Assembly: GCF_000473225.1 (NCBI RefSeq)
Contig: NZ_KI421509.1
Location: 4,180,336-4,244,335 of the forward strand
From: Sedimentitalea nanhaiensis DSM 24252
Lineage (GTDB): Bacteria; Pseudomonadota; Alphaproteobacteria; Rhodobacterales; Rhodobacteraceae
Reading direction: 5' to 3'
Length of the DNA: 64,000 bases
The notes under the pieces are model-generated. The model did no database searches and was not told the DNA's origin. It saw nothing but the letters and a program-made list of their open reading frames with translations. Numbering within the stretch: position 1 is the stretch's first letter; each line of letters opens with the position of its first letter. This document shows positions 42,788-63,845 of this stretch, piece after piece. The translations under genes and the position numbers were made by a program.

Positions 42788-42807
42788 GGAAGTGTTCCCC
42801 AGCGCGC

Positions 42808-47639: not shown

Positions 47640-48081
47640 GGTGCCGTTCGCCGCGGCGCCTGTCGTATTTACCGGCGTCTTGCGCAACTTGCGCCCGGGA
47701 ATGCAGGGCTTTGTGCCCTCGTCCGTAAGGGTCTCTCGGAGCAAATCCACGTCATTTCCTCTGTCAGCGAGGAGCCGCTCGGCCTTTGGCTGGCCGTTGA
47801 TCAAGGCAGCAGCGCCGGTATGATCGCTCAGGTGACCTGCGGTGATGACGAAACGGATCGGAGGTCCGCAGATGTCTGTGACCGCGTGCAGTCTGATGTT
47901 CATGCCGCCCTTGGCACGGCCACCCTCTCGGGACACTGCTGCGCGATGCCCTGCCGGGCAGTAGATTTCCGTATTGCAGCCCTGACGGCGTGCGTGGTCG
48001 TGGCACAACCATGACGAACCTGTCCCATAGTGCGTCCTTCCAGGCCCGAGAAAGGGTCGCACCATCAAACAATGGGGTCAT
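47640..48081 (-). pseudogene. IS5-family (IS427-type) transposase remnant
   Basis: Reading the minus strand, FDGATLSRAWKDALWDRF, then in a shifted frame GGRAKGGMNIRLHAVTDICG, ITAGHLSDHTGAAALI, LLADRGNDVDLLR and CIPGRKLRKTPV are clear IS427-type blocks. The catalytic region is interrupted by frameshifts and the C-terminal part decays, so it is inactive. It borders the TetR/AtuA-like gene block. Confidence 0.75.
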
Positions 48082-48102: not shown

Positions 48103-48753
48103 TCACTGATCAGGTTCAGGCTGGCGACGCCGCATATGAGGCGCAACCAGTTTCGCGAAGCGGCTTATCATCTTCTGTGCGGCTTCGGGATCGGATGTAA
48201 ACCGCTCCTGAAGGTGCAAACTGCGCAAAAATACCCGACAGATCGCCCAGAGTTCAACCACATCTTCGTCAGTGCCATTGGTCGATTGATAGACACGAAG
48301 AATGTCTTGATTGATGTCATCATTGTATTTCTTGAGAACCGGCTCGACCTTGTCGCGCAACTTCTTGTCCGTCCGCGCTGTCACCAGTATCTCGACCATG
48401 GCCCGACCCTCAGGCCGGTCCACTACCTTGGACCACAAGCTTAGAAGATCGTTTTCCATTGAAACGCCGCGCGCAACTGTGTTGCGGCGCGCCGCGTTTT
48501 GGCTTTTGCCCGTCCGCGTTGGAGCAAGAAGGCGCGACAGAGTGTCCGCCATCAAATCCTCTTTGGTCGCGAATTGGTGCATCAATGCCCCGCGCGAAAC
48601 CTCGGCACGCTCCTGCACACGCTGGATGCTCGTCTCGGAATATCCCATGTCATCAAGACAACTCACTGCGGCGTCACAAACCCGGCGGCGGGTATCCTCA
48701 CTGCGCTGTTCCTGACGATTTGGAGGGGGATTTGAAGATGTACGTTCGGTCAT
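48103..48753 (-). CDS. TetR-family transcriptional regulator
   Basis: A 216-residue regulator. The N-terminal helix-turn-helix reads RRRVCDAAVSCLDDMGYSE then TSIQRVQERAEVSRGALMHQF (about 25-65). The C-terminal ligand domain is not of a recognised subgroup. It is divergent from the AtuA-like gene across an 87-bp gap containing inverted repeats, so it probably controls the acyl-CoA pathway, with a CoA ester or acid as effector. A GTG start at 48762 is an alternative. Confidence 0.85.
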   Translation of the reverse strand: MTERTSSNPPPNRQEQRSEDTRRRVCDAAVSCLDDMGYSETSIQRVQERAEVSRGALMHQFATKEDLMADTLSRLLAPTRTGKSQNAARRNTVARGVSMENDLLSLWSKVVDRPEGRAMVEILVTARTDKKLRDKVEPVLKKYNDDINQDILRVYQSTNGTDEDVVELWAICRVFLRSLHLQERFTSDPEAAQKMISRFAKLVAPHMRRRQPEPDQ

Positions 48754-48782
48754 GCTGGGCACTCTGAGATTGCAGTTGCGTT

Positions 48783-48825
48783 TCGTATATTACGATACTA
48801 AAGAAACAGACTATACGGTTTGTAT
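48783..48825. promoter_or_regulatory. candidate TetR operators
   Basis: Two inverted repeats lie in the divergent gap: TCGTA-TAT-TACGA at 48783-48795 and ATAC-GGTTT-GTAT at 48813-48825. A weak promoter (TTGCAG at 48770, GATACT at 48794) for the rightward operon would overlap the first. Confidence 0.5.
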
Positions 48826-48840
48826 GTGGGACTGGAAAAC

Positions 48841-50628
48841 ATGTCGCGTATTTTTAAAGTCGGCGGTGCTAGCGGTTTTTGGGGTGAAGCGCCATCCGCC
48901 ACAGCGCAGCTTCTGTCATGTGATGTTGACGTTATCGTATATGATTATCTCGCTGAAATCACGATGTCCATTCTCGCACGGGCCAAGGCGCGCAACCCTG
49001 AAATGGGGTATGCTCCCGACTTTTTGAGCGCCGCCATCGGCCCAAATCTAGACGCCATCTCAGCCAAGGGCGTCAAGATTATCTCCAACGCAGGCGGCCT
49101 GAACCCAATGGCTTGCGGTACGAAGTTACGCACCATGATCGCGGATGCCGGGCTTTCGCTGAAGGTTGCCGTTGTGACTGGCGATGATCTGACAGACCGC
49201 TTGCAGGACTATGCAGATTCAGGTGTGACCGAAATGTTCTCCGGCGCTCCATTTCCGGCAATCGAAACCATCGCCTCTGCCAACGCCTATCTGGGCGCAT
49301 TCCCCATCACCGAAGCTTTGGCACAGGGCGCAGACATTGTCATAACAGGACGCTGCGTGGACAGCGCAGTCACGCTGGGGGCATGTATTCATGCCTTCGG
49401 GTGGACGCCGACTGACTATGACAGGCTGTCGGGCGGTGCGCTCGCCGGTCACATTCTGGAATGTGGCCCTCAGGCCACCGGCGGCAACTTCACCGATTGG
49501 GAGGATGTCGGTGAAGGAATGGAAACGATCGGCTATCCGATTGCTGAAATCGCGAGCGACGGATCATTCGTCGTGACCAAACCCGAGGGCACCGATGGTA
49601 TCGTCAACATCGGTACCGTGAGCGAGCAGATGTTGTATGAAATCGGCGATCCACAGGCCTATCCGCTGCCCGATGTAATCTGCGATTTCTCGACCGTCCG
49701 CATCACGCAGGAGGCACCCAATCGGGTGAAAGTAACCAACGCCACCGGGCATGCGGCACCCGACGGGTATAAGGTCAGCATGACCTACCAGGATGGATTT
49801 CGCGGTATCCAGTTGTTTGGTTATTATGGTGCAGATGCGCCGCGCAAAGCGCGCATGTTCGCAAAGGCGACATTGAACCGTGCCACTGCTACTCTCGCCC
49901 GCGCCGGTTTCGATGGGTTTACCGACACCAATGTCGAAATTCTCGGAACCGAAAGTCAATTTGGAGACCTGGCGCGCCGGGAAGACACGCGCGAAGTAAC
50001 GCTTAAGATCGCGGTAAGCCATCCCGACAAAGCGGGCCCAGCGGCGATGTTCAAAGAGGCGGTCGGCCTTGCGCTTGCCTGCCCGCCCGGACTTTGCGGT
50101 CTGGGTGGCGGTCTGGGCAAACCGTCTCCGGTGGTGCGCCTATTCTCGTTTATCGCGTCAAAAGAGACCATCGACGTCGCGGTAAACCTTGACGACCGTG
50201 AAATACCCGTGGCGATTGCCTCTGGCGCGCCGTTCGATGCTGCCTCGTTGCCGCGCCCCACTGCTCCTGCCATTTCCGAACCGGGCCAGATCGAGGTGAC
50301 CTTGCAGCAATTGGCCTGGGTCCGCTCCGGCGACAAGGGAAACAAGGCAAACGTTGGCGTGATAGCACGCAACCCGCATTATCTGCCCTATATCTGGGAC
50401 GCGCTGAATGACACAACCCTGCAAGCCCATTACGGCCATGTTGTTAAGGGCCGCATTGAGAAATTTCTGCTGCCCGAAAGCCATGCCATTAACTTTCTGA
50501 TGCACGATGCCTTAGCTGGGGGCGGCATAGCCAGCCTACGCAACGATCCGCAGGCCAAGGGTTTCTCGCAACTGCTTCTGGATTGTCCAGTGCGCATACC
50601 CGAAAGCATGACCAAGGAGCTAAAATGA
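48841..50628 (+). CDS. AtuA-like protein (DUF1446 family)
   Basis: A 595-residue protein from ATG 48841. The N-terminal DUF1446 domain (about 5-450: GGASGFWGEAP, SNAGGLNPMACGTKL, DIVITGRCVDSA) is followed by a C-terminal AtuA-type domain (about 485-590: LAWVRSGDKGNKANVGVIA). AtuA is encoded in terpene-utilisation (atu) operons of Pseudomonas, but its reaction is not established. Its stop overlaps the carboxyltransferase start (ATGA), which ties it closely to the carboxylase. Confidence 0.85.
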   Translation: MSRIFKVGGASGFWGEAPSATAQLLSCDVDVIVYDYLAEITMSILARAKARNPEMGYAPDFLSAAIGPNLDAISAKGVKIISNAGGLNPMACGTKLRTMIADAGLSLKVAVVTGDDLTDRLQDYADSGVTEMFSGAPFPAIETIASANAYLGAFPITEALAQGADIVITGRCVDSAVTLGACIHAFGWTPTDYDRLSGGALAGHILECGPQATGGNFTDWEDVGEGMETIGYPIAEIASDGSFVVTKPEGTDGIVNIGTVSEQMLYEIGDPQAYPLPDVICDFSTVRITQEAPNRVKVTNATGHAAPDGYKVSMTYQDGFRGIQLFGYYGADAPRKARMFAKATLNRATATLARAGFDGFTDTNVEILGTESQFGDLARREDTREVTLKIAVSHPDKAGPAAMFKEAVGLALACPPGLCGLGGGLGKPSPVVRLFSFIASKETIDVAVNLDDREIPVAIASGAPFDAASLPRPTAPAISEPGQIEVTLQQLAWVRSGDKGNKANVGVIARNPHYLPYIWDALNDTTLQAHYGHVVKGRIEKFLLPESHAINFLMHDALAGGGIASLRNDPQAKGFSQLLLDCPVRIPESMTKELK

Positions 50629-52247
50629 CTGTTTATGCGTCCCGTTTGTCATCGGCATCGGCCGATTTCACCGAAAACCGCACCGATATGCTGGTATTGG
50701 TGGACCGCCTCCGCAGTATCGAGGATCGCGCCCGAGCGCGCTCAGAGCAACGGCGCGAACGGTTCGAGGCACGCTGTCAGCTGACCCCACGCGACCGTCT
50801 GGCGAAATTGCTCGATCCGGGCATGCCATGGCAGGAGATTTACAATCTGGCCAGCTATCTGGTCGATGATCCAGATCCTGAAACCTCGGTGCCGGGGGCG
50901 TCAATGATCACCGGGATTGGTTTTGTCGGCGGCGTCCGCTCGCTGGTGGTTGTCGATGACAGTGGTATCAACGCCGGGGCCGTGACCACCAAATCGGTGG
51001 AAAAGGCTTTGGGGTGTTTAAAAATCGCGCAGCGCCAGAAGCTGCCGTTCATCCATCTGGTCGAAAGTGCCGGTGCCAACCTGATGGATTATACCGTCGA
51101 GTTATGGGCTCACGGCGGCGGCATGTTTCAGGGTCTGGCAAAGCTCTCGGCGATGGGTATTCCGGTGATCACCGTCCTGCATGGGCCGTCAACAGCGGGT
51201 GGCGCGTATCAGCCCGGCCTGTCAGACTATGTGATCGGTGTGCGCAAGAATGGCATGGCCGCATTGGCAGGGGCCGCACTGGTGCGCGCCGCCACTGGCG
51301 AAATTGCGACAGATGCCGAACTGGGCGGCGCCGAAATGCACGCCACGACCACCGGGTTGGTTGAATATCTGGCCGATGATGACGCCCATGGCATCGAAAT
51401 GGCGCGCGATTTGATGACGCGCCTCGGCTGGAACCGCGCGATGAAGCGCTCGGCCAGTACCAGCTTCAATGAACCGCTTTATGATCCCGACGAGATCGCA
51501 GGGATTGTACCGGTCAATTACCGCAAGCCCTATGAAATGCGCGAACTGGCCGCCCGTCTTGTCGATGGCTCGGACTTTACTGATTTCAAATCGCGCTACG
51601 GCGTCTCCACGACCTGTCTTCAGGCGCGAATCCACGGGCACAATTGTGGAATTATCGGCAATAACGGCCCCATCGACCCGGATGGCGCGACCAAGGCCGC
51701 ACATTTCATTCAACTCTGCGATCAATCGGATATTCCTCTTATTTTTCTTTCTAATACAACCGGGTACATGGTTGGGTCCGAGTATGAACATGCCGGGATG
51801 ATCAAACACGGTGCCAAGATGATCCAAGCGGTCACCAACGTATCGGTGCCGAAAATCGCGCTTTATATCGGCGCCAGCTTCGGTGCCGGGAATTACGGTA
51901 TGTGTGGCTATGCTTATGAACCTGATTTTCTGTTTACCTGGCCAAACGCCTTGACCGGCGTGATGGGGGGGGAGCAAGCCGCAACCACAATGGATCAAGT
52001 CGCCCGCGCCGGGGCTGCACGGCGCGGCATCGATGTCGCCGAAGATAAACTCAAGGCCCAGCGTGACCGTATAACCAAGCACTTCGATATACAGTCCGAC
52101 GCATTCTATACATCCGGGCGCATGCTCGACATGGGAATGATCGATCCACGCGATACCCGCCGCGTTCTGGCCTTTGCATTGGACACCACAGCCGAAGCGC
52201 GCGCGCGCGATTTGCGCCCGAATTCCTTTGGTGTGGCGCGAATGTAA
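50625..52247 (+). CDS. acyl-CoA carboxylase carboxyltransferase subunit (MCC/GCC beta-like)
   Basis: A 540-residue carboxyltransferase with the two crotonase-like halves (about 60-285 and 300-520). Typical blocks are GGVRSLVVVDDSGINAGAV, HGPSTAGGAYQPGLSDY, and the C-terminal SNTTGYMVGSEYEHAGMIKHGAKM with GASFGAGNYGMCG. This is the layout of methylcrotonyl-CoA and geranyl-CoA carboxylase beta subunits. The substrate cannot be read by eye. With the next gene it forms a complete biotin-dependent carboxylase. Confidence 0.9.
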   Translation: MTVYASRLSSASADFTENRTDMLVLVDRLRSIEDRARARSEQRRERFEARCQLTPRDRLAKLLDPGMPWQEIYNLASYLVDDPDPETSVPGASMITGIGFVGGVRSLVVVDDSGINAGAVTTKSVEKALGCLKIAQRQKLPFIHLVESAGANLMDYTVELWAHGGGMFQGLAKLSAMGIPVITVLHGPSTAGGAYQPGLSDYVIGVRKNGMAALAGAALVRAATGEIATDAELGGAEMHATTTGLVEYLADDDAHGIEMARDLMTRLGWNRAMKRSASTSFNEPLYDPDEIAGIVPVNYRKPYEMRELAARLVDGSDFTDFKSRYGVSTTCLQARIHGHNCGIIGNNGPIDPDGATKAAHFIQLCDQSDIPLIFLSNTTGYMVGSEYEHAGMIKHGAKMIQAVTNVSVPKIALYIGASFGAGNYGMCGYAYEPDFLFTWPNALTGVMGGEQAATTMDQVARAGAARRGIDVAEDKLKAQRDRITKHFDIQSDAFYTSGRMLDMGMIDPRDTRRVLAFALDTTAEARARDLRPNSFGVARM

Positions 52248-52293
52248 TCCGCCTGCCCGCCATTTTCTCCGATTTTTCGAACGAGGTTCGCTC

Positions 52294-54273
52294 ATGACAC
52301 CAATTCGCAGCCTGCTTGTCGCCAACCGAGGCGAGATCGCCCTGCGCATCATGCGCACGGCCAGACGCCTTGGTATCCGTGTCATTGCCGTTTATTCTGA
52401 TGCCGACGCCCAAGCGCCACATGTCTTGTTTGCCGATGATGCGGTGCGCATAGGCCCCGGCCCCGCCGCCGAAAGCTATCTGCTAGCAGAGCGTATTCTG
52501 GAAGCGGCCCGCACCTCCGGCGCCAATGCAATCCATCCTGGATACGGTTTTCTATCGGAGAACGCCGCTTTTGCGCGCAAGGTGCAAGAGGCCGGGCTGA
52601 TCTTTGTCGGGCCACCGGCGGATGCAATCGACGCCATGGGCGACAAGGCCGAATCCAAACGCAGGATGATTGCTGCAGGCGTACCCTGCGTGCCCGGCTA
52701 TGAAGACGCCGACCAATCCGATGAAAGGTTTCATGCCGCCGCACAGGAAATTGGGTTTCCAGTGATGGTCAAGGCCTCAGCGGGCGGCGGCGGGCGGGGG
52801 ATGCGCTTGGTCAATGCGCCAGAAGAACTGGAAACAGGTCTTCGACTGGCAAGATCCGAGGCGCTGTCAGCCTTCGGGTCCGACATCCTGATCCTTGAAA
52901 AAGCGATCCTGCAACCGCGCCATATCGAGATTCAGATCTTTTCCGATCAGGCAGGCAACACCGTTCACATGGGCGAACGCGATTGTTCCGTACAGCGCCG
53001 CCACCAGAAGGTAATCGAGGAATCCCCTTCCCCTGCCGTTTCGCCCGAAATGCGCGACGCTATGGGTCAAGCCGCTATCGAAGCCGCACGCGCCATCAAT
53101 TACGTTGGTGCGGGCACTGTCGAATTTCTGACAGATGCCTCCGGAGAATTCTATTTTCTTGAAATGAACACCAGACTTCAGGTTGAGCATCCGGTCACTG
53201 AAATGGTCACCGGTCTGGATTTGGTGGCACTGCAGATTGAGGTGGCACAGGGCGCGCCGCTGAACATGACCCAAGAGGACATCACCCTGTCCGGTCATGC
53301 CATCGAGGCCCGGCTCTATGCCGAGGATCCGGGCCAGGATTTTCGGCCCGCGACAGGAAAGATAGCGCTTTGGTCGCCCGCCAGCGGCGAAGGCGTACGC
53401 GTTGACGGCGGAATTGCCAGCGGGCAACAGGTCAGCCCCTTCTACGACCCGATGTTGGCCAAGATTATTGCTTGGGGTGAAAACCGCGAAATCGCACGTC
53501 GTCGCCTGATTGCGGCGCTGGAAGGCAGCCCGTTGCTGGGTGTGACCAGCAATAAACGCTTCTTGACACAGATACTTGAACGCCCCGCCTTTTCGGAAGG
53601 CCGCGCCACCACTGCGTTCATCTCCGAAGAATTCACCCAAGCCGATCTTGACGCCCCCGCGCCGGATGCGCGTGCGCTAGCTGTTGCCGCAGTATTGTTT
53701 TATCGCGGCGAATGTGATGCGGCGCTCGCAGCCAGCCCGGGGATTTCAGAGAAATTGCTGAACTGGTCCAGCACTGGCAATATGCACACGGTGATTGAAT
53801 TCGGCGATGCCGAGCAAGACCATGCTGTCACGGTAACGCCGAGTGGGGCGCAATGTTATGCCGCCAAAGTCGGTGAGATCGAGATCGCAATCGCCATTCA
53901 TGGCACATCGATCTGGATCAACGGGCGCAACGGCGGTGTGTTCTGGGTGCGCGACCACAATGACGTCTATTTGGAGTTGGACGGAAACAACCATTGCTTT
54001 ACCCGCCTGTCGCGGCTGGCCGCGGAAGACGCCTCGGGATCCGCCGGCGACGTGCGCGCACCCATGCATGGGGTTTTGACCGAACTGCATGTGAAACACG
54101 GCCAGAGCGTTCAAGCCGGAGACCGGCTGGCGGTTCTGGAAGCCATGAAGCTACAGCATGAGATCCGAGCCGAGATCGCCGGCAGTGTCAGCGCCATCAT
54201 GGCAACAATCGGGAACCAGATCGGCGCTGGCGACCTGATCCTGGAAATTGAAGCGGTAGACGGTAATGATTGA
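52294..54273 (+). CDS. acyl-CoA carboxylase biotin carboxylase/biotin carrier subunit
   Basis: A 659-residue alpha subunit. The biotin carboxylase domain (about 1-450) starts SLLVANRGEIALRIMRTARRLGI and has the GGGGRGM ATP loop and EMNTRLQVEHPVTE. A carrier domain at the C-terminus holds the biotinylated lysine in EAMKLQHE (K619). It carboxylates biotin with bicarbonate and ATP, then hands CO2 to the beta subunit encoded 46 bp upstream. Its stop overlaps the next gene by 8 bp. Confidence 0.92.
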   Translation: MTPIRSLLVANRGEIALRIMRTARRLGIRVIAVYSDADAQAPHVLFADDAVRIGPGPAAESYLLAERILEAARTSGANAIHPGYGFLSENAAFARKVQEAGLIFVGPPADAIDAMGDKAESKRRMIAAGVPCVPGYEDADQSDERFHAAAQEIGFPVMVKASAGGGGRGMRLVNAPEELETGLRLARSEALSAFGSDILILEKAILQPRHIEIQIFSDQAGNTVHMGERDCSVQRRHQKVIEESPSPAVSPEMRDAMGQAAIEAARAINYVGAGTVEFLTDASGEFYFLEMNTRLQVEHPVTEMVTGLDLVALQIEVAQGAPLNMTQEDITLSGHAIEARLYAEDPGQDFRPATGKIALWSPASGEGVRVDGGIASGQQVSPFYDPMLAKIIAWGENREIARRRLIAALEGSPLLGVTSNKRFLTQILERPAFSEGRATTAFISEEFTQADLDAPAPDARALAVAAVLFYRGECDAALAASPGISEKLLNWSSTGNMHTVIEFGDAEQDHAVTVTPSGAQCYAAKVGEIEIAIAIHGTSIWINGRNGGVFWVRDHNDVYLELDGNNHCFTRLSRLAAEDASGSAGDVRAPMHGVLTELHVKHGQSVQAGDRLAVLEAMKLQHEIRAEIAGSVSAIMATIGNQIGAGDLILEIEAVDGND

Positions 54274-55078
54274 AGCACAGAGCTTTCTTGAGGAATGCAA
54301 CGCGCTGGCCGCTTTGCTACAGCCGCTCGAAGACAAAGATTTTGAGCGCAAAACCCAGTTCAAGGATTGGACCATCAACGATGTGCTGGGCCATCTGCAC
54401 ATTTTCAACCATGCCGCCGAACTTACCCTAGCCTCGCCTGACCGGTTCGGGCCGTTTCTGTCGGGTATTACGGATCTGGTCGCCCAGGGCAAAACCCTGG
54501 TGCAGGCCCAATATGACTGGATCGACACTCTGTCCGGACGGGCGCTGCTGGAAGCCTGGCAAGCGGGCTCTCTGCGGCTGGCTGAGGTTTATCAAACTGC
54601 CGACCCCAAAACACGGGTGAAGTGGGCCGGACCTGACATGTCAGCACGATCCTCGATCACGGCGCGCCAGATGGAAACGTGGGCGCATGGTCAAGAACTG
54701 TTTGACCTGCTTGGCGTGACCCGGACAGATACCGACCGACTGCGCAATATCGCTCATCTGGCCGTGGTCACGATTCCCTTTGCCTTCGCCATCCGCAAGG
54801 AGCCCGCACCCAATCCCCTGCCATATGTTCGCCTGACCGCCCCTTCCGGGGATGTTTGGGAATGGAATACTCCACAACAGGACAACCGCATTGAAGGCAG
54901 CGCAACCGCATTTTGCCAGACGGCAACCCAAGTACGAAACGTCAAGGACACCGATCTGACTGCGCATGGGGCACATGCCAAACGCTGGACCCAAATCGCC
55001 CAGTGTTTTGCCGGAGCCCCCCACGACCCACCCCAACCCAACACGCGCTTCACACAGGAAATCGACGAAAAAGCATGA
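54266..55078 (+). CDS. TIGR03084-family DinB/maleylpyruvate-isomerase-like protein
   Basis: A 270-residue protein of the DinB/mycothiol-dependent isomerase fold. The metal-site histidines appear in GHLHIFNHAAEL and TWAHGQE. Family members occur with AtuA-like and carboxylase genes, but their reaction is unknown. It overlaps the biotin carboxylase gene by 8 bp, so translation is coupled. A role as a metal-dependent isomerase or thiol-adduct enzyme in the same pathway is inferred. Confidence 0.8.
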   Translation: MIEAQSFLEECNALAALLQPLEDKDFERKTQFKDWTINDVLGHLHIFNHAAELTLASPDRFGPFLSGITDLVAQGKTLVQAQYDWIDTLSGRALLEAWQAGSLRLAEVYQTADPKTRVKWAGPDMSARSSITARQMETWAHGQELFDLLGVTRTDTDRLRNIAHLAVVTIPFAFAIRKEPAPNPLPYVRLTAPSGDVWEWNTPQQDNRIEGSATAFCQTATQVRNVKDTDLTAHGAHAKRWTQIAQCFAGAPHDPPQPNTRFTQEIDEKA

Positions 55079-55250
55079 AATCGTTTTCAACGCCGGCAAG
55101 CAACTGACGACGAATTAAAACGCGTCAAACGATCCACAGCTTTCGGAATATTTGGCGTAAATTCCGTTTGCAGAAGGCCCCGAATAAGTGGTGCAAAAGA
55201 TTCTGTCATTTTGGGAATAATAGTCGGGCGCGTTTATCGGGTATCGGAAT

Positions 55251-55274
55251 TACGAAAATACGAAAATACGAAAA
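55251..55274 (+). repeat. three perfect tandem copies of TACGAAAA
   Basis: The 8-mer occurs at 55251-55258, 55259-55266 and 55267-55274, just before the ribosome site of the next gene. It could be slippage-prone or a regulator site. Part of the 215-bp gap 55079-55293, which otherwise shows nothing clear. Confidence 0.7.
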
Positions 55275-55293
55275 GAAGAGCTAGGAGGAACGA

Positions 55294-56949
55294 TTGCAAA
55301 GTTTGAAACACGAAAACAGGCAAACCGTCGCAAGCCTTTTTGAGAAAACGGCAGAGATGGCACCGGATCTCGTCTTTGTCGCGTGGCGCGAGACGCCAGA
55401 TGCGCCGTTTCAAGAGCAGACCTACGGCGCATTTCTCCAGGGGGTTAAAGCACTGCGCGAGCGATATGCCGCCGCCGGCTACGGTGTTGGCATGCGTGTT
55501 GCCCTCCTGATTGGAAATCGTCCCGAATTCTACACGCAATATCTGGCGCTGAATGGCCTGGGCGTTTCAATCGTTCCCCTGAATCCGCAAGCGACGGCTT
55601 CTGAGATGCGCTATGCGATTGATCACTCCGGCGTGGCCATTGTGCTGTTTCACCCTCACCTCTCCGCCCCCCTGGAGGCAGCACTCTCAGCACGCGAGCA
55701 ACCGCTGCCCCGCGTTAACATTACGGCTTTGCCCGATCGCCTACCGGTTTTCAAAGCTCCTGCCAGTCGCCAGGCCGGCACCCGCGATGACGAGGCGGCA
55801 ATTCTTTACACTTCGGGAACCACGAACAAGCCCAAGGGTTGCGTGCTGACCAACCGCTATGTGCTTGAGGCCGGTCATGCCTACGCCAATTGGGGGGGCA
55901 TGCTCTCGCTTCAATACGGCCACGAACGGTTGCTGAACCCCCTGCCCCTTTTTCACATGAACAACCTCGTCGTTACCACAACGGCCATGATCGAGGTCGC
56001 CGGATGCAACGTGATGATCGAGCGGTTTTCGCCAACCCGTTGGTGGCAGGATTGCGGACAGTCGCGCGCAACGATCATCCATTATCTCGGCGTAATGCCA
56101 GCTATGTTGCTGTCGCAACCCGTTAACTCTGCCGAAATCATACCATCCATCCGTATCGGGGTCGGTGCCGGCGTAGACCCGAAACATCACGCCGCATTTG
56201 AGGCACGGTTTGATTTTCCTCTCATCGAGCTTTGGGGCATGACCGAGACTGGCTGCGGCTTCATCGCCAGCGAAGAACCTCGCCATGTCGGGACCCGCGC
56301 CTTTGGGCGCCCCGGCGCACTGTTGCACGCGCGCGTCGTCGATGACAATTTGCGCGACGTCGCTACGGGCCAGGTCGGAGAATTGTTGGTCCAGTCGATT
56401 GGCGATGATCCACGCAAAACTTTCTTTTCCAGATACCTGAACGATCCAGACGCAACCGCAGAAGCATGGCACGGCGACTGGTTCAGAACAGGCGACGTCG
56501 TGCGTCAGGACCAGACCGGCATGCTGTATTTCGTCGACCGCAAAAAGAATATCATCCGGCGCTCGGGCGAGAACATTGCCGCGATGGAGGTCGAAGCCGC
56601 GTTGCAATCTCACCCAGACGTTTCTCAGGTCGCAGTTATTGCCGTACGCGATGAGCTGCGCGATGAAGAGGTTTTTGCCTGTGCCGTCGTCAGAGACGGC
56701 GTCGCACACGACAGCAACACGGCGCGCCGGCTGTTCGACTGGGTTATCGAGCAACTCGCATATTTCAAAGCCCCCGGATACATCTGTTTTCGTCCCGAGT
56801 TGCCCATGACTGGCACGCAGAAGCTTCAAAAGTCATTGATTTTCGCGCGAGGCGAATCCCCGGTGGCGGCAAAGGATACTTTTGATATGCGTCCTCTGAA
56901 ACGCCGATCCCGCACAGGATCCGCCCCCCAAAAAGGAACCGCGCAATGA
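55294..56949 (+). CDS. acyl-CoA synthetase (AMP-forming), ligase 1 of the carboxylase cluster
   Basis: A 551-residue ANL-family ligase resembling CaiC/FadD types. The AMP loop is ILYTSGTTNKPKG (about 170-182), the acceptor block LWGMTETGCGF, then YFVDRKKNIIRRSGENI and a terminal GTQKLQK lysine. It starts at TTG 55294, five bases after AGGAGG; no ATG fits. It would activate an imported acid to its CoA ester. Its stop overlaps the TRAP small subunit start (ATGA). Confidence 0.86.
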   Translation: MQSLKHENRQTVASLFEKTAEMAPDLVFVAWRETPDAPFQEQTYGAFLQGVKALRERYAAAGYGVGMRVALLIGNRPEFYTQYLALNGLGVSIVPLNPQATASEMRYAIDHSGVAIVLFHPHLSAPLEAALSAREQPLPRVNITALPDRLPVFKAPASRQAGTRDDEAAILYTSGTTNKPKGCVLTNRYVLEAGHAYANWGGMLSLQYGHERLLNPLPLFHMNNLVVTTTAMIEVAGCNVMIERFSPTRWWQDCGQSRATIIHYLGVMPAMLLSQPVNSAEIIPSIRIGVGAGVDPKHHAAFEARFDFPLIELWGMTETGCGFIASEEPRHVGTRAFGRPGALLHARVVDDNLRDVATGQVGELLVQSIGDDPRKTFFSRYLNDPDATAEAWHGDWFRTGDVVRQDQTGMLYFVDRKKNIIRRSGENIAAMEVEAALQSHPDVSQVAVIAVRDELRDEEVFACAVVRDGVAHDSNTARRLFDWVIEQLAYFKAPGYICFRPELPMTGTQKLQKSLIFARGESPVAAKDTFDMRPLKRRSRTGSAPQKGTAQ

Positions 56950-57449
56950 ACGCGGTTCTTTCCCTCATAGACCGGATCAGCGCCGTGGTTGGACGCACTG
57001 TGGGCTGGGTAATCGTATTTGTCATGTTTATCGCGGTTTTTGACGTTCTGGCCCGCCGCCTGTTCAACGCACCGGTCGCCTGGGCGTTTGATGTATCGGT
57101 TCAGTTGTTTGCGCTGCATTTCATGCTCGCTTCGGCCTATGCGATGCTAAACAACGAACACGTCTCCATCAACATTTTCACGAACCGCCTGTCGGTGCGT
57201 GCCCGTGCAATCGTGGACATGTTCACCATGGCCGTTCTGTTCTTTCCGTTCGTCATCGTATTGATCATCTATGGGTGGGAGTTTGCCGAACGGTCCTGGG
57301 CGGTGCGCGAAACCAGTTGGGGCATCGTCGCATTGCCTCTTTATTACATCAAAACCGTCATCCCCATAACCGGCGTTTTACTGCTGTTACAGGGCTTTGC
57401 AAGCTTTGTACGCCGCTTTCGGATCGCGCGTACGGGGGTTGAGGCATGA
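56946..57449 (+). CDS. TRAP transporter small permease
   Basis: A 167-residue DctQ-type protein with four membrane segments (about 15-37, 50-68, 92-112 and 134-153). It overlaps both neighbours by ATGA: the ligase upstream and the large permease downstream. This coupling shows that transport and CoA activation are made together. Confidence 0.88.
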   Translation: MNAVLSLIDRISAVVGRTVGWVIVFVMFIAVFDVLARRLFNAPVAWAFDVSVQLFALHFMLASAYAMLNNEHVSINIFTNRLSVRARAIVDMFTMAVLFFPFVIVLIIYGWEFAERSWAVRETSWGIVALPLYYIKTVIPITGVLLLLQGFASFVRRFRIARTGVEA

Positions 57450-58771
57450 GTGCGGAGCTTCTAACGATCCTGATGTTTTCGGGGCTGATCGTCGGACTAT
57501 TCCTGGGGCAACCGCTGGCGTTTGTGCTGGGTGGCTTGGCGGTGATCTTTTCCTATCTCGGGCCGGGGCCAAAAATTCTGGGACTGACGATCAACCGGAT
57601 TTACAGTCAGATGGACAACTACATCCTCATCGCGGTTCCGATGTTTATCCTGATGGCGCGCCTGCTGAGCGCTTCCGGCGTGACCGAAAACATGTTTCAT
57701 GCGCTGCGCCTGATGTTCGGACGGATGCAGGGTGGCCTGACGCTGGCCGTGATCGCAATTTCCGTCGTTCTCGCTGCGACGACCGGCATTATCGGAGCAT
57801 CAATGACCGTGATGGGCGTTCTCGCGCTGCCGTCGATGATGAAATACGGCTATCAAAAAGAACTGAGCTGCGGCGCTATCGCAGCGGGCGGAAGCCTGGG
57901 AATTCTGATTCCGCCGAGTATCATGCTGGTGATCCTTGGCAGCTATGCCCAGATTTCAGTCGGGCAACTGTTTGCTGCCGCCCTAATGCCGGGTTTGATG
58001 CTGGCGACGCTTTATGCGCTTTACGCCGCCATTCTGACCTTCTTCAAACCAGAATACGGCCCGCCGGTATCCGAAGAGGAATTGAGCCGGACCAACCGCA
58101 AGGAAATCACCTTTATGCTGTTGAAGATGGCTGTGCCGCCTATCGTGCTGATCCTCGGGGTTCTCGGGTCAATCTTTGCGGGTTGGGCCACAACAACCGA
58201 GGCAGCATCACTGGGCGCGTTCCTTACCCTTGTGATGGTCATTGTATACGGCAAGTTCTCGTTGAAAATGCTGCATGAAGCGGTTGCGGATACAGCACGG
58301 ACATCGGCCATGGTCCTGTTTGTCGTCGTCGGTGCGACCGCCTTTACCGGTGTGTTTATGGCAATTGGCGGGATGCGCACAGTTGCCGGGTCGCTTGAAG
58401 CGCTGGGGCTGGGTCCGTGGGGGATTTTCCTTTTGATGATGGGGCTGACATTTGTCCTCGGGATGTTCCTGGATTGGCTGGGGATCGTATTGATCTGTCT
58501 GCCGATTTTCCTGCCATTGGCGACACAGGCTGGTTTTGACCCGCTTTGGTTCGTGATGATGATGGCGATCGTCTTGCAGACATCGTTCCTGACCCCTCCA
58601 TTTGGCTATGCCCTGTTCTATCTCGAAGGCGTCGCCCCTCCGGGGGTCACGCTTGGTCATATCTATCGCGGCGTCATGCCATTTGTCGGCCTGATCGTTT
58701 TTGGAGCCGTGCTTTGCGCGATATTCCCGCAGATTATCACATGGCTGCCAACTTTTATCTTCTCGCGCTGA
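57446..58771 (+). CDS. TRAP transporter large permease
   Basis: A 441-residue DctM-family protein with about twelve membrane segments. Hallmarks include YILIAVPMFILMARLLSASG, GIIGASMTVMGVLALPSM, GSLGILIPPSIMLVILG and LGMFLDWLGIVLICLPIFLP. It forms the ion-driven channel with the small subunit. The context points to a carboxylic acid substrate used by the downstream ligases. Confidence 0.92.
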   Translation: MSAELLTILMFSGLIVGLFLGQPLAFVLGGLAVIFSYLGPGPKILGLTINRIYSQMDNYILIAVPMFILMARLLSASGVTENMFHALRLMFGRMQGGLTLAVIAISVVLAATTGIIGASMTVMGVLALPSMMKYGYQKELSCGAIAAGGSLGILIPPSIMLVILGSYAQISVGQLFAAALMPGLMLATLYALYAAILTFFKPEYGPPVSEEELSRTNRKEITFMLLKMAVPPIVLILGVLGSIFAGWATTTEAASLGAFLTLVMVIVYGKFSLKMLHEAVADTARTSAMVLFVVVGATAFTGVFMAIGGMRTVAGSLEALGLGPWGIFLLMMGLTFVLGMFLDWLGIVLICLPIFLPLATQAGFDPLWFVMMMAIVLQTSFLTPPFGYALFYLEGVAPPGVTLGHIYRGVMPFVGLIVFGAVLCAIFPQIITWLPTFIFSR

Positions 58772-58821
58772 TAGTGCGAAAGACCGACGAAGATCCGAAA
58801 AGAAATAATGGGAGTTCGGAA

Positions 58822-59934
58822 ATGAAGACCATAATTGCGAAACAGCTTGTTGCCCTGGGAATTGCTGGAACCATGACGCTTGGTGCCGAAATGGCACTCG
58901 CAAGCGATCCGGTTAATATCCAGATGACAACGACATGGCCCGAAGGCATCAACCTGATCGAGGCCGACAAGCATTTTGTCGAACTCGTCAACAAGCTGGG
59001 CGAAGACGCGATCAACATCGATTTCTTCCCTGGCAACACCATTGTGCCTTCGACTCAGGTGTTTGATGCGGTGCGTTCCGGTGCGACGCAGGCCGCGGCG
59101 GACTGGCCCGGATACTGGGCAGGTACCAACACCGCCTTCTCGCTTTTGGGATCGTTCCCGATGCTGTTTTCGGCGCAAGACTATGTGCTGTGGATCAACG
59201 AATGGGGCGGTGCCGAAATGTTCGACGCGGCTTACGGCGAGTACGGCATCAAGTACCTGCCCTACGCTGTAATCTCGACCGAATCCGGCCTGCGATCAAC
59301 AAAGCCGCTGGCGTCTCTCGACGATCTGAACGGCAAGCGTTTGCGCATGTCAGGCCGCGCACAGGGTGCTATCCTCGCCGAACTCGGTGGTGCACAGGTC
59401 ATGCTTCCCGGGTCAGAAGTCTATCAATCACTGGAACGCGGCGTCGTCGACGCAGCCGAGTTTTCCTCGCCCAGCACCGACTATGGCATGGGGTTTCAGG
59501 AAGTGACACAATACTGGATGGCACCTGGCTGGCACCAGCCCGGTTCGGTTGCCGGTGTTATGATCGCACAGGAGGTCTGGGACGGGCTGTCGGACAAGCA
59601 GCAGTTCATCCTGAAAACCGCCGCACAGGCGACCATGAACTGGTCGATCGGCTACTATGAGCGCACCTCTGCCGAGGCGACCAAAGCGTTCACCGACACG
59701 GGAGTGACCGTCTCGACCCTCAGCGCCGAGGACATGACACGGCTTCAGGAAATGTCGAATGCGAATTTGGTGAAAGAAGCTTGTGACAATCCGTTGTTTG
59801 CCAAGATCACAGTGTCGAAACTGGAATACCTGAAGGAGTACGAACAGTGGCGTGAGATGCAGGGCGAATTCGCTCAGGGCCGTAACCTATCCACGTTTCC
59901 TGACCTTGAAGCCATCCGTGCCTGTGCCGAATAA
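58822..59934 (+). CDS. TRAP transporter substrate-binding protein (TakP-like)
   Basis: A 370-residue DctP-family binding protein from ATG 58822, with a signal peptide (MKTIIAK...GAEMALAS). Blocks such as TTTWPEGINLIEADKHFVE, DWPGYWAGTN and KRLRMSGRAQG with the carboxylate-binding arginine resemble TakP, the 2-oxoacid-binding protein. It follows the permease genes, the reverse of the tau operon order. Substrate is thus likely a monocarboxylate; exact identity unknown. Confidence 0.85.
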   Translation: MKTIIAKQLVALGIAGTMTLGAEMALASDPVNIQMTTTWPEGINLIEADKHFVELVNKLGEDAINIDFFPGNTIVPSTQVFDAVRSGATQAAADWPGYWAGTNTAFSLLGSFPMLFSAQDYVLWINEWGGAEMFDAAYGEYGIKYLPYAVISTESGLRSTKPLASLDDLNGKRLRMSGRAQGAILAELGGAQVMLPGSEVYQSLERGVVDAAEFSSPSTDYGMGFQEVTQYWMAPGWHQPGSVAGVMIAQEVWDGLSDKQQFILKTAAQATMNWSIGYYERTSAEATKAFTDTGVTVSTLSAEDMTRLQEMSNANLVKEACDNPLFAKITVSKLEYLKEYEQWREMQGEFAQGRNLSTFPDLEAIRACAE

Positions 59935-60007
59935 GCGCTGAAAACCAAATCAACAACACGGCTCATCCCGGCAGGTGGGCCGTGTCGCCAACAGAGGATC
60001 GAGGATC

Positions 60008-61567
60008 ATGACTGCACCCAGCATTCCGGGCATATCTCCACAGCTTGCGCTTCAATCAGCAGGCCTGACCATTGGGGCGCTATTTGATATTTCCGTCCGA
60101 CAGTCGCCCCGGCGCATTGCGCTTGAGGATGCAGCCGGCCAAATGACTTATCACGAGTTGGACATCCGCAGCAATCGTCTTGCCAATCACCTCCTGTCGC
60201 GCGGGGTCCAACGCGGCGACCGTATCGCTATCTTGTCCGAAAACCGTCGTGAATACATCGAGATCCTGATCGCCACGGCCAAGATTGGCGTGATCGCCGC
60301 CTGCCAGAACTGGCGCCTGTCCGAAGGCGAGCTGCGCCATTGCCTTGAGTTGGTTACGCCTAAACTGATTTTCACCTCGCCCCGCAACCACGACCTTGGC
60401 GCGAAACACGCCGATATTTGCCCGTTGCAGGAATTTGGTCCCAATTACGAAACCGCGATATCTGCTGAGTCTGAAATTCGCCCGCCCGACCCGTGCCACC
60501 CCGAAGACGGTGTTGTCATTCTTTATACTAGTGGAACCACCGGCCTTCCCAAGGGCGCCCTTATCAGCCACCGCGCCGAAATCGCGCGCACCATGGGGCA
60601 AATGATCGACCTGCCGGTAACCCCCGAAGATGCCTTTGTCGCTTGGGCGCCCCTGTTTCACATGGTTTCGACCGACACCGTGTTTTCGACGCTGATGCAG
60701 GGCGGCACCGTGATTGTCACGGATGGCTTCAACCCCACCGAACTCGCCGAGATCGTAACGTCCAAACAACTGGGCCGCCTGACCCTGATGCCCGGGATGA
60801 TCGAGCCGTTTCTATCCGCGATGAAGGTTCTGGACCGCCCCGTCATAGGAGTGAAATGGGCCGGTGTCATGGCGGATCTGGTCCCGCCCAAACAAATTTC
60901 CGAAGTCACAACCCTGCTGGATGCGCCCTATCTGAACAGTTTCGGATCAACAGAAACCGGGCTCGCACCGGCATCGGGCGGCTTGATCCCGGTCGGCGAA
61001 GTCCCACAATCACTGGACAAGCAACAAAGCTCGCTCTGCCAGATCAGGCTGGTCGATCCCGACGACAATGAGGTTCCGGATGGTGAACCCGGTGAACTGG
61101 TGATCCGCAGCCCGGCATTGTTCAGCGGCTATTGGAATAACGAACAGGCCAATACAAAAGATTTCCGGGGCGGCTGGTTCCACATGGGCGATGTATTCAT
61201 CCGCAACCCCGATCACACGCTCTCCTTTGTCGATCGGCGTAAATACCTGATCAAATCCGGCGGTGAAAACATCTATCCCGCCGAAGTAGAGCGCGTTTTG
61301 CTGTCGAATCCACGTGTGGCAGATGCCGTGGTGATCCGCAAACCCGATGCGCAATGGGGCGAAGTGCCCGTCGCCTATATTGTCCGCAAAGATCACTCGT
61401 TGTCGGAAGACGATCTGTTAGCGCAATGTGCGGGCCGAATTGCAAAATACAAATGGCCCAAAGAGTTCCGCTTTGTCTCTGATGATGAACTGCCCCGCAG
61501 CACCACAGGAAAGATCATTCGCCATGAGCTCGAAAGCCGTATGCTCAAAGAGCAATCAGCAGAATAA
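60008..61567 (+). CDS. acyl-CoA synthetase (AMP-forming), ligase 2 of the carboxylase cluster
   Basis: A 519-residue ANL ligase from ATG 60008 (GAGGATC before it). The AMP loop is ILYTSGTTGLPKG (about 175-187), followed by FGSTETGLAP, YLIKSGGENIYPAEVE and the terminal lysine in RSTTGKIIRHEL. It differs clearly from ligase 1, so the cluster may activate two acids or one acid at two stages. The next gene starts 17 bp later. Confidence 0.88.
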   Translation: MTAPSIPGISPQLALQSAGLTIGALFDISVRQSPRRIALEDAAGQMTYHELDIRSNRLANHLLSRGVQRGDRIAILSENRREYIEILIATAKIGVIAACQNWRLSEGELRHCLELVTPKLIFTSPRNHDLGAKHADICPLQEFGPNYETAISAESEIRPPDPCHPEDGVVILYTSGTTGLPKGALISHRAEIARTMGQMIDLPVTPEDAFVAWAPLFHMVSTDTVFSTLMQGGTVIVTDGFNPTELAEIVTSKQLGRLTLMPGMIEPFLSAMKVLDRPVIGVKWAGVMADLVPPKQISEVTTLLDAPYLNSFGSTETGLAPASGGLIPVGEVPQSLDKQQSSLCQIRLVDPDDNEVPDGEPGELVIRSPALFSGYWNNEQANTKDFRGGWFHMGDVFIRNPDHTLSFVDRRKYLIKSGGENIYPAEVERVLLSNPRVADAVVIRKPDAQWGEVPVAYIVRKDHSLSEDDLLAQCAGRIAKYKWPKEFRFVSDDELPRSTTGKIIRHELESRMLKEQSAE

Positions 61568-61584
61568 TTTGAGGAAACTGCATC

Positions 61585-62391
61585 ATGTCGAAAGTTCTTT
61601 ATCAACTCGATGACAATATCGCCCGCATCACGCTGAACCGGCCTGAAGTTCACAACGCGCTGGACCCAGAAACGCTCTGTTTGCTGGGAGATTTTTTCAC
61701 CGAGATCAGCAAGAATGACGGCGTGGATGTAGTGATCGTTACAGGCACCGGTAAAAAATCTTTTAGCTCCGGCGGCGATCTCGGAACATTTATTCCTTTG
61801 ATGAGCGGAGCTAGAAAACCCGAAAACGAATGGGAATTGCGTTGGCAAAATGAGCCCGGTATTTTTGATCGTGCCATCCTGCGGAATTTCGATGTCGGCA
61901 AACCCGTCATTGCCGCTATCAACGGCTCGGCAATTGCAGGCGGGATGGAGTTTGTGCAAGGAACCGATTTGCGCATCGCTTCCGAAACCGCAAAATTCGG
62001 GGTTCAGGAAGTGAAATGGGGATTGTTCCCAGCCGGGGGGTCATCGGTTCGCCTGCCCCAACAAATGACGATGCCGCGTGCGATGGAGCTATTATTGACA
62101 GGCGAATTGATCGATTCGAAAACGGCACTTGAATGGGGGTTCTTGAACCGTGTGGTTCGCTCCGATCGGGTCCTCGACACAGCCTATGAAATGGCGGGAC
62201 GCATCGCCCGCAACGGTCCAATCGCGGTAAAGGCAGTGCGGGAGTCGGCCTACGCCTGTGTCGGCCTGGAACAACGCGACGCCCTTATCAGAGAATATGA
62301 AATTGCACAGCGGGTATTTAGTTCCGAGGATGCGCGCGAAGGGCCAATGAGCTTTATGGAAAAACGCCCACCCGTGTTTCGCAACAGATAG
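61585..62391 (+). CDS. enoyl-CoA hydratase/isomerase family protein 1
   Basis: A 268-residue crotonase-fold enzyme. The oxyanion-hole segments are SSGGDLGTF and NGSAIAGGMEF. Both Glu residues of classical hydratases appear to be kept: VQEVKWGL and RAMELLLTG. The sequence WGLFPAGGSSVRLP resembles true enoyl-CoA hydratases. It would hydrate the double bond of an enoyl-CoA in the pathway. Confidence 0.86.
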   Translation: MSKVLYQLDDNIARITLNRPEVHNALDPETLCLLGDFFTEISKNDGVDVVIVTGTGKKSFSSGGDLGTFIPLMSGARKPENEWELRWQNEPGIFDRAILRNFDVGKPVIAAINGSAIAGGMEFVQGTDLRIASETAKFGVQEVKWGLFPAGGSSVRLPQQMTMPRAMELLLTGELIDSKTALEWGFLNRVVRSDRVLDTAYEMAGRIARNGPIAVKAVRESAYACVGLEQRDALIREYEIAQRVFSSEDAREGPMSFMEKRPPVFRNR

Positions 62392-62625
62392 GTAAATAGT
62401 GCGCCAAAAACGCCGTAGAACTTGCGATTGGTGAAACTTCTGGTTTCGCATCCAATATGAAGCGCTGATGCGCTGCCTAAAAGACAGGCGGACCAAGATA
62501 AGGGACGAAAATATTGGCTTGTCAGAAAATGTCATCTGATACGGCGCACCGTTCGAACTGATTTTAATCCTTACCAGCCAACCTGACCCAGCGGCCAATA
62601 CGGTTTATCGCCAAAGGAAATTCGC
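62392..62625. other. gap between the two hydratase genes
   Basis: A 234-bp gap without a gene. No terminator was convincing; the second hydratase may have its own promoter here. AAAGGAAATTCGC precedes its ATG. Confidence 0.4.
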
Positions 62626-63426
62626 ATGTCAAAAACGCCCCCCCTGGAAATCGTTAGAGACGCGGGCTGGCTCACCATTTGGTTGAACCGCCCCGAAACG
62701 CGCAACGCATTGTCCCGTGAAATGAGCGCAGCCTTGATGGATACTCTACAAGAGATAGCCGCGGATCGAAGCATTCGCGGTGTCACGCTGCGGGGCAAAG
62801 GTAACACGTTTTGTGCAGGCGGCGATCTCAAGAGTTTCAAGGCTATCGGAAACGGCGATCAGACCGTCGAAGAGGTCACCACTATGAGCCGCGAAGCAGG
62901 CGAGCTGTTTATGGCGGTGAGTACCCTACCACAGATTGTTGTCGTTCTGATCGAAGGCGCGGCAATGGCAGGCGGCTTAGGGTTGGCATGCGCTGCCGAT
63001 ATCGTTGCGAGCACCAGATCTGCCAAATTCGCGCTGACGGAAACCATGATCGGGATCCCACCAGCGCAGATCGCCCCTTATGTTGTGCGTCGTGTCGGGG
63101 CCACGTTGGCGCGGCGGATCATGCTGACCGGGATGCGGTTCCAAGGCCATCAGGCACTGGAGTTTGGTCTTCTCGATCATGTATGCGACGACACTGCCGG
63201 GCTTTTGGCGTTCGAAAGTGAAATTCGTGGGGGGGTCATGCGCTGCGCACCCGGTGCAAATGCCGCAACAAAGGAGGTGCTGCATGCGGTTGAACATATG
63301 GCACCCGACGCGCTCATAGATTTTGCGGCAGAACGGTTCACCACATCACTTCTGGGAACGGAAGGGCGTGAGGGTATTGCGTCCTTTCTTGAAAAACGTG
63401 AACCCTCCTGGGCCCAAGGTCACTGA
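62626..63426 (+). CDS. enoyl-CoA hydratase family protein 2, LiuC/AtuE (glutaconyl-CoA hydratase)-like
   Basis: A 266-residue crotonase-fold enzyme with oxyanion segments CAGGDLKSF and EGAAMAGGLGLAC. The first catalytic Glu is kept (ALTETMIGI). The following stretch IPPAQIAPYVVRRVG replaces the usual PGAGGTQRLP, and Arg-Arg stands at the second Glu site (LARRIMLTG). This pattern is known from methylglutaconyl- and isohexenylglutaconyl-CoA hydratases (LiuC, AtuE). These act right after biotin-dependent carboxylases such as the one encoded upstream. Confidence 0.82.
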   Translation: MSKTPPLEIVRDAGWLTIWLNRPETRNALSREMSAALMDTLQEIAADRSIRGVTLRGKGNTFCAGGDLKSFKAIGNGDQTVEEVTTMSREAGELFMAVSTLPQIVVVLIEGAAMAGGLGLACAADIVASTRSAKFALTETMIGIPPAQIAPYVVRRVGATLARRIMLTGMRFQGHQALEFGLLDHVCDDTAGLLAFESEIRGGVMRCAPGANAATKEVLHAVEHMAPDALIDFAAERFTTSLLGTEGREGIASFLEKREPSWAQGH

Positions 63427-63577
63427 TCGCTCGTAAGCGACGGACGCCCACAGGCGCGTGGAAACCACGTGGAAACTAAAAGAAGTCTTCGACCGCGGCG
63501 GATCGGGCGTTGCCACCGGGGGCGGGCGCCGGATCTTCGGCGGGAAACACGCCTGTATCCACCGGCACTGGGACCGC

Positions 63578-63700
63578 TTGCAGAACTTTTTCCGTGATGG
63601 CCGCATCGAAATTGCCTCCAATGCCGTGGAAGGTCTGATCCGCCCGTTTGCCCTGACAAGAAAGAATGCCCTCTTCGCCAGCCACGATAAAGGCGCGCGA
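63578..63700 (+). pseudogene. IS66-family transposase C-terminal remnant
   Basis: About 40 codons reading LQNFFRDGRIEIASNAVEG then IRPFALTRKNALFASHDKGA, the conserved end of IS66 TnpC transposases. Everything before and after is lost. It closes the gene block on the right; the surrounding 63427-63845 holds no other recognisable gene. Confidence 0.75.
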
Positions 63701-63845
63701 AACAAGTGGCGGGGGGGGCCGGACTGTCCAGACCCGCAATCGCATCGTCAACCAACGCGGGGAATCTGTCATCACCCATACGCCAGTACGCCTGATGGCA
63801 GGGGGTGTGAGACCTGACACATCAACGGCCCACCCGCCCCCTGCC

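Follow-up and report, generated by a model that had tools for sequence, protein, structure and literature searches.

The 12-gene island at positions 48103-63426 of the Sedimentitalea nanhaiensis DSM 24252 window (the window being the whole 64,000-nucleotide stretch analysed, C4:4180336-4244335 of the 4.95-Mb host genome G000) is probably an accessory, rearranged cluster of the acyclic terpene utilisation (Atu) type, directed at a beta-methyl-branched, isoprenoid-type unsaturated carboxylic acid. It consists of a TetR-family regulator gene on the minus strand followed by eleven plus-strand genes, from AtuA to a second crotonase, and every gene named for it in a first-pass annotation is present there with an open frame and a family match. 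That annotation had presented the island as uncharacterised. This description has to be given up, because a precedent exists in the Atu cluster of Pseudomonas nitroreducens, 44-50% identical; the pathway itself is a relative of the known Atu pathway. Clusters tied to citronellol, which the annotation had said would refute its proposal, are found in part, in the form of these Atu relatives. What is new here is the marine-type module with a TIGR03084 protein, the citramalate-lyase fold of AtuA, and a dehydrogenase-free arrangement linked to a tripartite ATP-independent periplasmic (TRAP) transporter.

The carboxyltransferase beta subunit (CT; 50625-52247, plus strand; Carboxyl_trans, PF01039) has as its best solved relative the beta subunit of Pseudomonas aeruginosa geranyl-CoA carboxylase (GCC; 5ikl), which scores 565 bits, the next chains reaching 436 and 430. 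According to an excerpt of PMC4673880, GCC has Gly162 in place of Phe191 of methylcrotonyl-CoA carboxylase (MCC), and MCC carries a three-residue insertion just ahead of that Phe, giving a sequence rule that separates the two enzymes. In our alignment the window CT shows Gly in the GCC-162 column and is without the MCC insertion; one extra residue lies slightly upstream of the insertion site. A CT tree of 95 rows, made by a quick method with a midpoint root and including two long-branch rows (L076 and L107_3606), places the window CT in a 46-row clade (support 100), outside the 12-row clade of canonical AtuC. Both groups belong to one 64-row set (support 92) that does not take in P. aeruginosa MCC. 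The nearest named rows are from Leisingera and Phaeobacter, which suggests that the host is a relative of the roseobacters. Over the 95 rows the GCC-162 column holds 78 Gly, 12 Phe, 4 Ala and 1 Ser, one of the Gly rows (L190_own) being almost surely in a wrong reading frame. The partner subunit, an AtuF-like biotin carboxylase with biotin carrier (BC; 52294-54273, plus strand; PF00289, PF02786, PF02785, PF00364), is 50% identical to the P. nitroreducens copy (L139). Because GCC is the best match, the pocket residue is Gly, the MCC insertion is missing and the tree position agrees, CT and BC are expected to gamma-carboxylate a beta-methyl enoyl-CoA that exceeds methylcrotonyl-CoA in size.

Gene neighbourhoods were surveyed in 37 stretches of the order (L033-L069) and at 80 named loci, including loci cut by contig ends, and the CT tree sorted the named loci into 31 of the marine clade, 11 canonical, 7 type-B and 31 unplaced. 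Three arrangements with a carboxylase were found: the canonical atu cluster of Pseudomonas, Acinetobacter and Alcanivorax; a marine order, AtuA-CT-(AtuE)-BC-(NMO)-TIGR03084, frequently accompanied by an acyl-CoA dehydrogenase gene in divergent orientation; and type B, AtuA-BC-BCCP-CT, where BCCP is biotin carboxyl carrier protein. TIGR03084 is present at 18 of 31 marine loci, at none of the 11 canonical or 7 type-B loci, and at 6 of 31 unplaced ones. Within the marine CT clade, the dehydrogenase (at least 45% identical) occurs at 11 of 31 loci, an NMO-family protein at 8 and an AtuE-like gene at 22. The order AtuA-CT-(AtuE)-BC recurs across many proteobacteria, and in one relative (L045) the neighbours of the cluster include genes for a thiolase and an acyl-CoA dehydrogenase, together with a large gene that contains a crotonase. 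None of 12 stretches around relatives of the TRAP solute-binding protein DctP or of ligase 1 has AtuA, CT or BC at 25% identity or more. AtuA itself, at E <= 1e-50, is found in 1 of the 5 genomes of the genus (the host only) and in 33 of the 292 genomes of the order. The island is therefore accessory DNA.

Two crotonases close the island. The best solved relative of the second (62626-63426, plus strand; ECH_1, PF00378) is 4zu2, a putative isohexenylglutaconyl-CoA hydratase of AtuE type (207.5 bits), and its E139 does not vary among 22 sequences (those of the window copy and of 21 of the 39 available relatives). Crotonase 1 (61585-62391, plus strand; PF00378) has EchA19 as its best match, below the NCBIfam cut-off, and may serve beta-oxidation.

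AtuA (48841-50628, plus strand) joins the PF07287 domain to a C-terminal ferredoxin-like domain (AtuA_ferredoxin, PF23544). A structural model built from 60 sequences (the window copy and 59 of the 80 named loci; pLDDT 94.2) has a single PDB fold match under E 0.001, 9evf_A (E 9.7e-23, TM 0.58/0.74), from an entry titled "Citramalate lyase - ADP - pyruvate complex". Second in rank comes 9evf_B, the small chain in that entry (E 0.006, probability 1.00). Since both chains are matched, AtuA is consistent with a fusion of the two citramalate lyase subunits, and split relatives exist as genes of 442 and 105 residues, the shorter one being Pfam AtuA_ferredoxin. A profile of the AtuA alignment matches the lyase subunit CmlA (E 9.9e-8); among the 60 AtuA sequences, 20 of the 38 invariant columns are common to CmlA, against 49 of the 170 variable ones. 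R170, D173, E206, C207, D218, Y265 and E266 of AtuA are among these common columns. We recognised no paper on the 9evf structure among the open-licence citramalate lyase literature since 2016. An excerpt of PMC12016498, which notes unpublished results of its authors, states that the AtuA-like proteins ThnQS cleave a tertiary hydroxy-acyl-CoA to 3-oxoazelaoyl-CoA, by analogy the same kind of bond as in the cut envisaged here. On the strength of the citramalate lyase fold and the ThnQS report, AtuA is proposed to be a C-C lyase for 3-hydroxy-3-alkylglutaryl-CoA. The first-pass statement that AtuA has no known reaction is outdated in view of 9evf and ThnQS, and its suggestion that AtuA may make the last cleavage is plausible, with the fold, the CmlA profile, the shared invariant columns and the ThnQS statement in its support.

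The TIGR03084 protein (54266-55078, plus strand) scores 300.8 bits against a curated cut-off of 247.95. A model built from 23 sequences (pLDDT 94.7) finds its best fold match, over the whole chain, in mycothiol-dependent maleylpyruvate isomerase (2nsf/2nsg; E 1.7e-5, TM 0.51/0.56); a sequence-profile search against PDB returned nothing. H43, E137 and H141 are invariant in the 23 sequences. An H52A mutant is named among the fold matches, and the metal ligands of 2nsf are presumably His52, Glu144 and His148. Maleylpyruvate isomerase converts a cis double bond to trans by means of a thiol. In an excerpt of PMC5815605, a related branch of the superfamily is described with three conserved histidines and metal-dependent activity, and an excerpt of PMC4097962 lists the carboxylase substrate as cis-geranyl-CoA. 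Because the isomerase acts from cis to trans through a thiol and the listed carboxylase substrate is a cis compound, we propose, as the weakest step of the scheme, that TIGR03084 acts on behalf of the carboxylase as a thiol-dependent E/Z isomerase. No mention of TIGR03084 by name was found in the open-licence literature searched.

At E <= 1e-20, TIGR03084 is present in 42 of the 292 genomes of the order: in 17 of 18 with a non-type-B AtuA at least 49% identical, versus 25 of 274 others (Fisher p 2.9e-15, with kinship ignored and the AtuA genomes grouped by eye). In 10 of these 17 genomes no more than about 10 kb separates it from AtuA. Its position away from AtuA in 7 of the 17 argues against the isomerase idea, as does the finding that in 13 of 16 AtuA-negative stretches (16 of 24 such genomes viewed) no carboxylase of at least 35% identity lies beside it. 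Four of the seven distant loci were viewed; three (L234-L236) adjoin an acyl-CoA dehydrogenase and a TetR gene, both of the same kinds, and L237 does not. In 3 of the 16 AtuA-negative genomes, TIGR03084 comes after a CT 62-64% identical to that of the window and is itself followed by a beta-keto acid cleavage enzyme (PF05853), with BC in two. These modules (L229:6807-10257, L230:5221-10558 and L232:5025-10278) have no AtuA in the stretch, and carry another C-C cutting enzyme beside the same CT-TIGR03084 module.

The TRAP transporter comprises the small permease DctQ (56946-57449; PF04290), the large permease DctM (57446-58771; PF06808, with TIGR00786 above cut-off) and DctP (58819-59934; PF03480), all on the plus strand. 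The nearest solved relative of DctP is 7ug8 (E 9.6e-38), named as a ketoacid-binding protein. On the same strand, acyl-CoA ligase 1 (ACS1; 55294-56949; PF00501) precedes the transporter, has an uncertain TTG start, and comes nearest to NCBIfam PRK06155, below cut-off; ligase 2 (60008-61567; PF00501) follows. Relatives of ligase 2 at 50-53%, closer than most, occur in the type-B AtuA stretches L060 and L137. Within the order, DctP relatives (48-51% identical) occur in 24 of 284 genomes and 7 of 111 genera, host included; three of the 24 (the host, G200 and G204) have AtuA. Ligase 1 relatives occur in 39 of 284 genomes. The neighbours of DctP relatives, viewed without family scans, gave no lead to the substrate. 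A TRAP transporter near AtuA is not unique to this island, as a TRAP-subunit match of at least 25% is found at 4 of the 80 named loci, among them L117, where TRAP genes come after TIGR03084 on the other strand, and the unrelated locus L120.

That neither an acyl-CoA dehydrogenase nor an HMG-CoA-type lyase (HMG, 3-hydroxy-3-methylglutaryl) is encoded in the window, as the first-pass annotation had stated, agrees with genome searches that returned no match there at E <= 1e-40 and E <= 0.001, respectively. The acyl-CoA dehydrogenase of related clusters is in fact absent from the whole host genome (best match 35%), so the imported acid is probably already alpha,beta-unsaturated at uptake. Our choice for the solute is a water-soluble branched unsaturated acid. 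The lyase absence argues little, and we do not treat it as informative, because two HMG-CoA lyases over cut-off lie elsewhere in the host genome.

These assignments suggest the following route. The TRAP transporter would import the acid, and one of the two ligases would form its CoA ester. TIGR03084 may then set the double-bond geometry, a step less secure than any other. The AtuC/AtuF-type carboxylase, as its family, tree position and active-site glycine indicate, would gamma-carboxylate the beta-methyl group, and the AtuE-like crotonase, judged by family, would hydrate the product to 3-hydroxy-3-alkylglutaryl-CoA. AtuA, viewed through its fold and the ThnQS report as a single-chain counterpart of citramalate lyase with its two subunits, would cut at the tertiary alcohol, giving a 3-oxoacyl-CoA and acetate or an activated acetyl form; the 3-oxoacyl-CoA would enter beta-oxidation. 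The sequence of import, activation, carboxylation and hydration drawn up in the first-pass annotation fits the gene families, and its standing as something without precedent is lost to the Atu relatives. A more specific version makes TIGR03084 an E/Z isomerase that supplies cis beta-methyl-enoyl-CoA to the GCC-type carboxylase, and AtuA a nucleotide-using lyase of the retro-Claisen kind, by which the free carboxylate is activated and 3-oxoacyl-CoA set free along with an acetyl unit. The two together would form a widespread route for natural trans-isoprenoid acids, here with a TRAP importer for an already unsaturated acid. We put this version forward tentatively, as it is unlikely to hold in all its parts.

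The main rival for the last cut is LiuE in trans: the pathway would be of Atu type, a LiuE-type HMG-CoA lyase encoded elsewhere would make the final cleavage, and AtuA would be employed otherwise, for example in activation or by-product hydrolysis. The host encodes HMG-CoA lyases over cut-off at C4:1341363, near an MCC-like gene at C4:1344301, and at C7:162281; such a lyase is found in 23 of the 24 AtuA genomes examined (host included, out of 33), and PMC4097962, as excerpted, names liuE for the step. Excerpts of PMC9973270, PMC4097962 and PMC4847356 show that AtuA and LiuE are in disagreement in print as the enzyme of this cut. We nevertheless regard LiuE as an unlikely answer. The products of the final cleavage are printed as acetate and 3-oxoacyl-CoA (excerpts of PMC4097962 and PMC4847356), which places the cut on the free-carboxylate side, whereas HMG-CoA lyase yields acetyl-CoA and acetoacetate (PMC12016498, likewise in excerpt). 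Moreover, AtuA itself has a lyase fold, and G139, an AtuA genome in which AtuA is differently arranged, is without an HMG-CoA lyase above cut-off. An ordinary leucine/isovalerate (Liu) cluster, which would share the same enzyme classes of carboxylase and crotonase, is very improbable and was rejected on the pocket glycine: the residue is Gly rather than Phe, the MCC insertion is missing, and an MCC-like subunit with Phe lies near an HMG-CoA lyase elsewhere in the host genome.

It is also possible, if somewhat doubtful, that the TRAP-ligase-crotonase 1 segment forms a pathway of its own, set beside a four-gene Atu core and handling a different substrate. The 215-base gap and the lack of a TetR operator before ligase 1 would fit such a division, as would the rarity of AtuA among genomes with DctP relatives and the dozen DctP and ligase 1 stretches in which core genes were sought in vain. 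Against it, the AtuE-like gene sits beyond the TRAP segment, so that the Atu set spans it; 9 of the 39 genomes with ligase 1 relatives are AtuA genomes, and one of them (L035) has both within a single 20-kb stretch; and at L120 a single gene separates AtuA from the TRAP genes upstream of it. Several observations do count against our preferred interpretation, a single Atu-type pathway ending with AtuA. The HMG-CoA lyase in nearly all AtuA genomes examined and the printed assignment to LiuE, in the excerpt of PMC4097962, mean that AtuA may not be the lyase in this pathway. AtuA loci without an adjoining carboxylase (Pelagibacteraceae L100 and L104, Seohaeicola L119) mean that AtuA is not necessarily tied to carboxylation. 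At 13 of the 31 loci of the window's own CT clade the stretch shows no TIGR03084 (L071, L072, L089 and L111, for example), and the likeness of DctP to a ketoacid-binding protein is odd for a terpenoid acid. To these is added the result of the operator scan given below.

The TetR-family gene (48103-48762, minus strand; TetR_N, PF00440) is divergent from AtuA, and the gap between them holds a putative operator, AAACAGACTATACGGTTTGTA, at 48804-48824 on the plus strand. The pattern AAACAGAnnnnnCGGTyTGTA has one exact match in the window; it was read from relatives and the window site together, so this match is not independent evidence. The presence of the putative operator in the TetR-AtuA gaps of seven aligned relatives is a better argument than its uniqueness in the window. 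With up to three mismatches there are three sites in the window versus 0.36 expected, the other two at 3673 and 51915, and none was found before ligase 1, at the head of the TRAP/ligase unit, or before crotonase 2. TetR may repress the AtuA-CT-BC-TIGR03084 unit from 48804-48824; co-regulation may not extend to all parts of the island. TetR relatives 36-47% identical occur in 8 of the 37 AtuA stretches of the order. Likeness to the L139 gene divergent from AtuA is weak, 20% over 50 residues only.

The overlapping starts and stops reported in the first-pass annotation are found at AtuA/CT (ATGA, 50625-50628), BC/TIGR03084 (54266-54273), and ACS1/DctQ and DctQ/DctM (4 bases each). They do not run through the whole island, and the gaps of 215 bases before ligase 1 and 234 bases before crotonase 2 suggest two or three transcription units. 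Family scans of window genes, covering 40916 rightward, identified transposase remnants at both edges, of the IS5 family on the left (47271-48068, minus strand; PF01609, NF033580 below cut-off) and of IS66 on the right (63458-63817, plus strand; PF03050, NF033517 below cut-off). No clean empty site emerged among the four other members of the genus: one of the four retains only the left flank, as far as about 44320, and a continuous right flank was not found. Across 39001-44320 one other genome of the genus shows 73% identity. Left of the island lies a complete second TRAP transporter (DctM, DctQ and DctP; 41447-44419, minus strand), alongside a universal-stress-type protein (40916-41425). A putative cyclase open reading frame (PF04199; 46427-47248) with an odd N-terminus adjoins the IS5 remnant and may be a decayed gene. 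Beyond the IS66 remnant, the minus strand encodes another acyl-CoA ligase (L070:3793-5752).

A DNA-level search for the island on plasmids gave no match; 72 plasmid records hold an AtuA less than 60% identical, many from Pseudosulfitobacter, Sulfitobacter and Sagittula. The host has a second AtuA cluster, of type B (L033, C7:182001-202000), whose CT combines the pocket Gly with a retained MCC-like insertion; the contig in question, of 236 kb, is rich in acyl-CoA dehydrogenases. Other AtuA loci depart further from the Atu plan. Pelagibacteraceae L104 (10001-20134), L100 and L108 have AtuA and an AtuE-like hydratase with no carboxylase, and TIGR03084 in L100 and L104; in L104, ABC importer genes and a gene for an FAD-dependent enzyme stand between the genes of the AtuA locus, in the place of the carboxylase. 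Seohaeicola saemankumensis L119 (6764-11909) is a minimal case, also without carboxylase, with an acyl-CoA dehydrogenase on one side of AtuA-TIGR03084 and a dehydrogenase on the other. A Rhodospirillaceae metagenome-assembled genome (L076, 1320-14203) has AtuA and an AtuE-like gene with hydantoinase A/B, a CoA-transferase and a distant carboxyltransferase.

If correct, the Atu-type interpretation would give assayable roles to two poorly understood families that recur together in marine-type proteobacteria. It would account for the entry of trans-isoprenoid acids into a pathway whose carboxylase, in the excerpt of PMC4097962, is given as acting on cis-geranyl-CoA, and would settle the printed disagreement between AtuA and LiuE over the last cut.

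The closest described system is the atuABCDEFGH cluster of Pseudomonas, a dmg/atu version of which, from another P. nitroreducens strain, is discussed in an excerpt of PMC9973270. Relative to P. nitroreducens L139, the window proteins are 48% (AtuA), 47% (AtuC), 44% (AtuE) and 50% (AtuF) identical, and both clusters have a divergent gene ahead of AtuA, a TetR gene in the window and a putative regulator in L139. Atu clusters are marked by an AtuR-type repressor with operators in the atuA gap, and are needed for growth on citronellol or geranic acid. The window cluster differs in lacking AtuB, AtuD and AtuG, with no dehydrogenase of either kind in 48103-63426; in having TIGR03084, the TRAP transporter, a second crotonase and two ligases 23-24% identical to the L139 ligase; and in the move of AtuE to the end. 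Marine Atu-like operons of Rhodobacterales, Halieaceae, Kordiimonas and Hyphomonadaceae share the AtuA-CT-(AtuE)-BC-TIGR03084 core, with CT about 59-71% identical; some carry a dehydrogenase or NMO gene absent from the window cluster, which adds the TRAP/ligase segment. AtuA resembles citramalate lyase CmlA and its small subunit (9erq, 9evf) in the fold of both domains and in 20 of 38 invariant columns, and differs in being one fused chain, at 17% identity, with a CoA-ester substrate proposed. TIGR03084 likewise resembles mycothiol-dependent maleylpyruvate isomerase in fold over the whole chain and in the conserved His/Glu/His, whereas identity is 14-15% with no profile match, and another thiol and another substrate would be expected.

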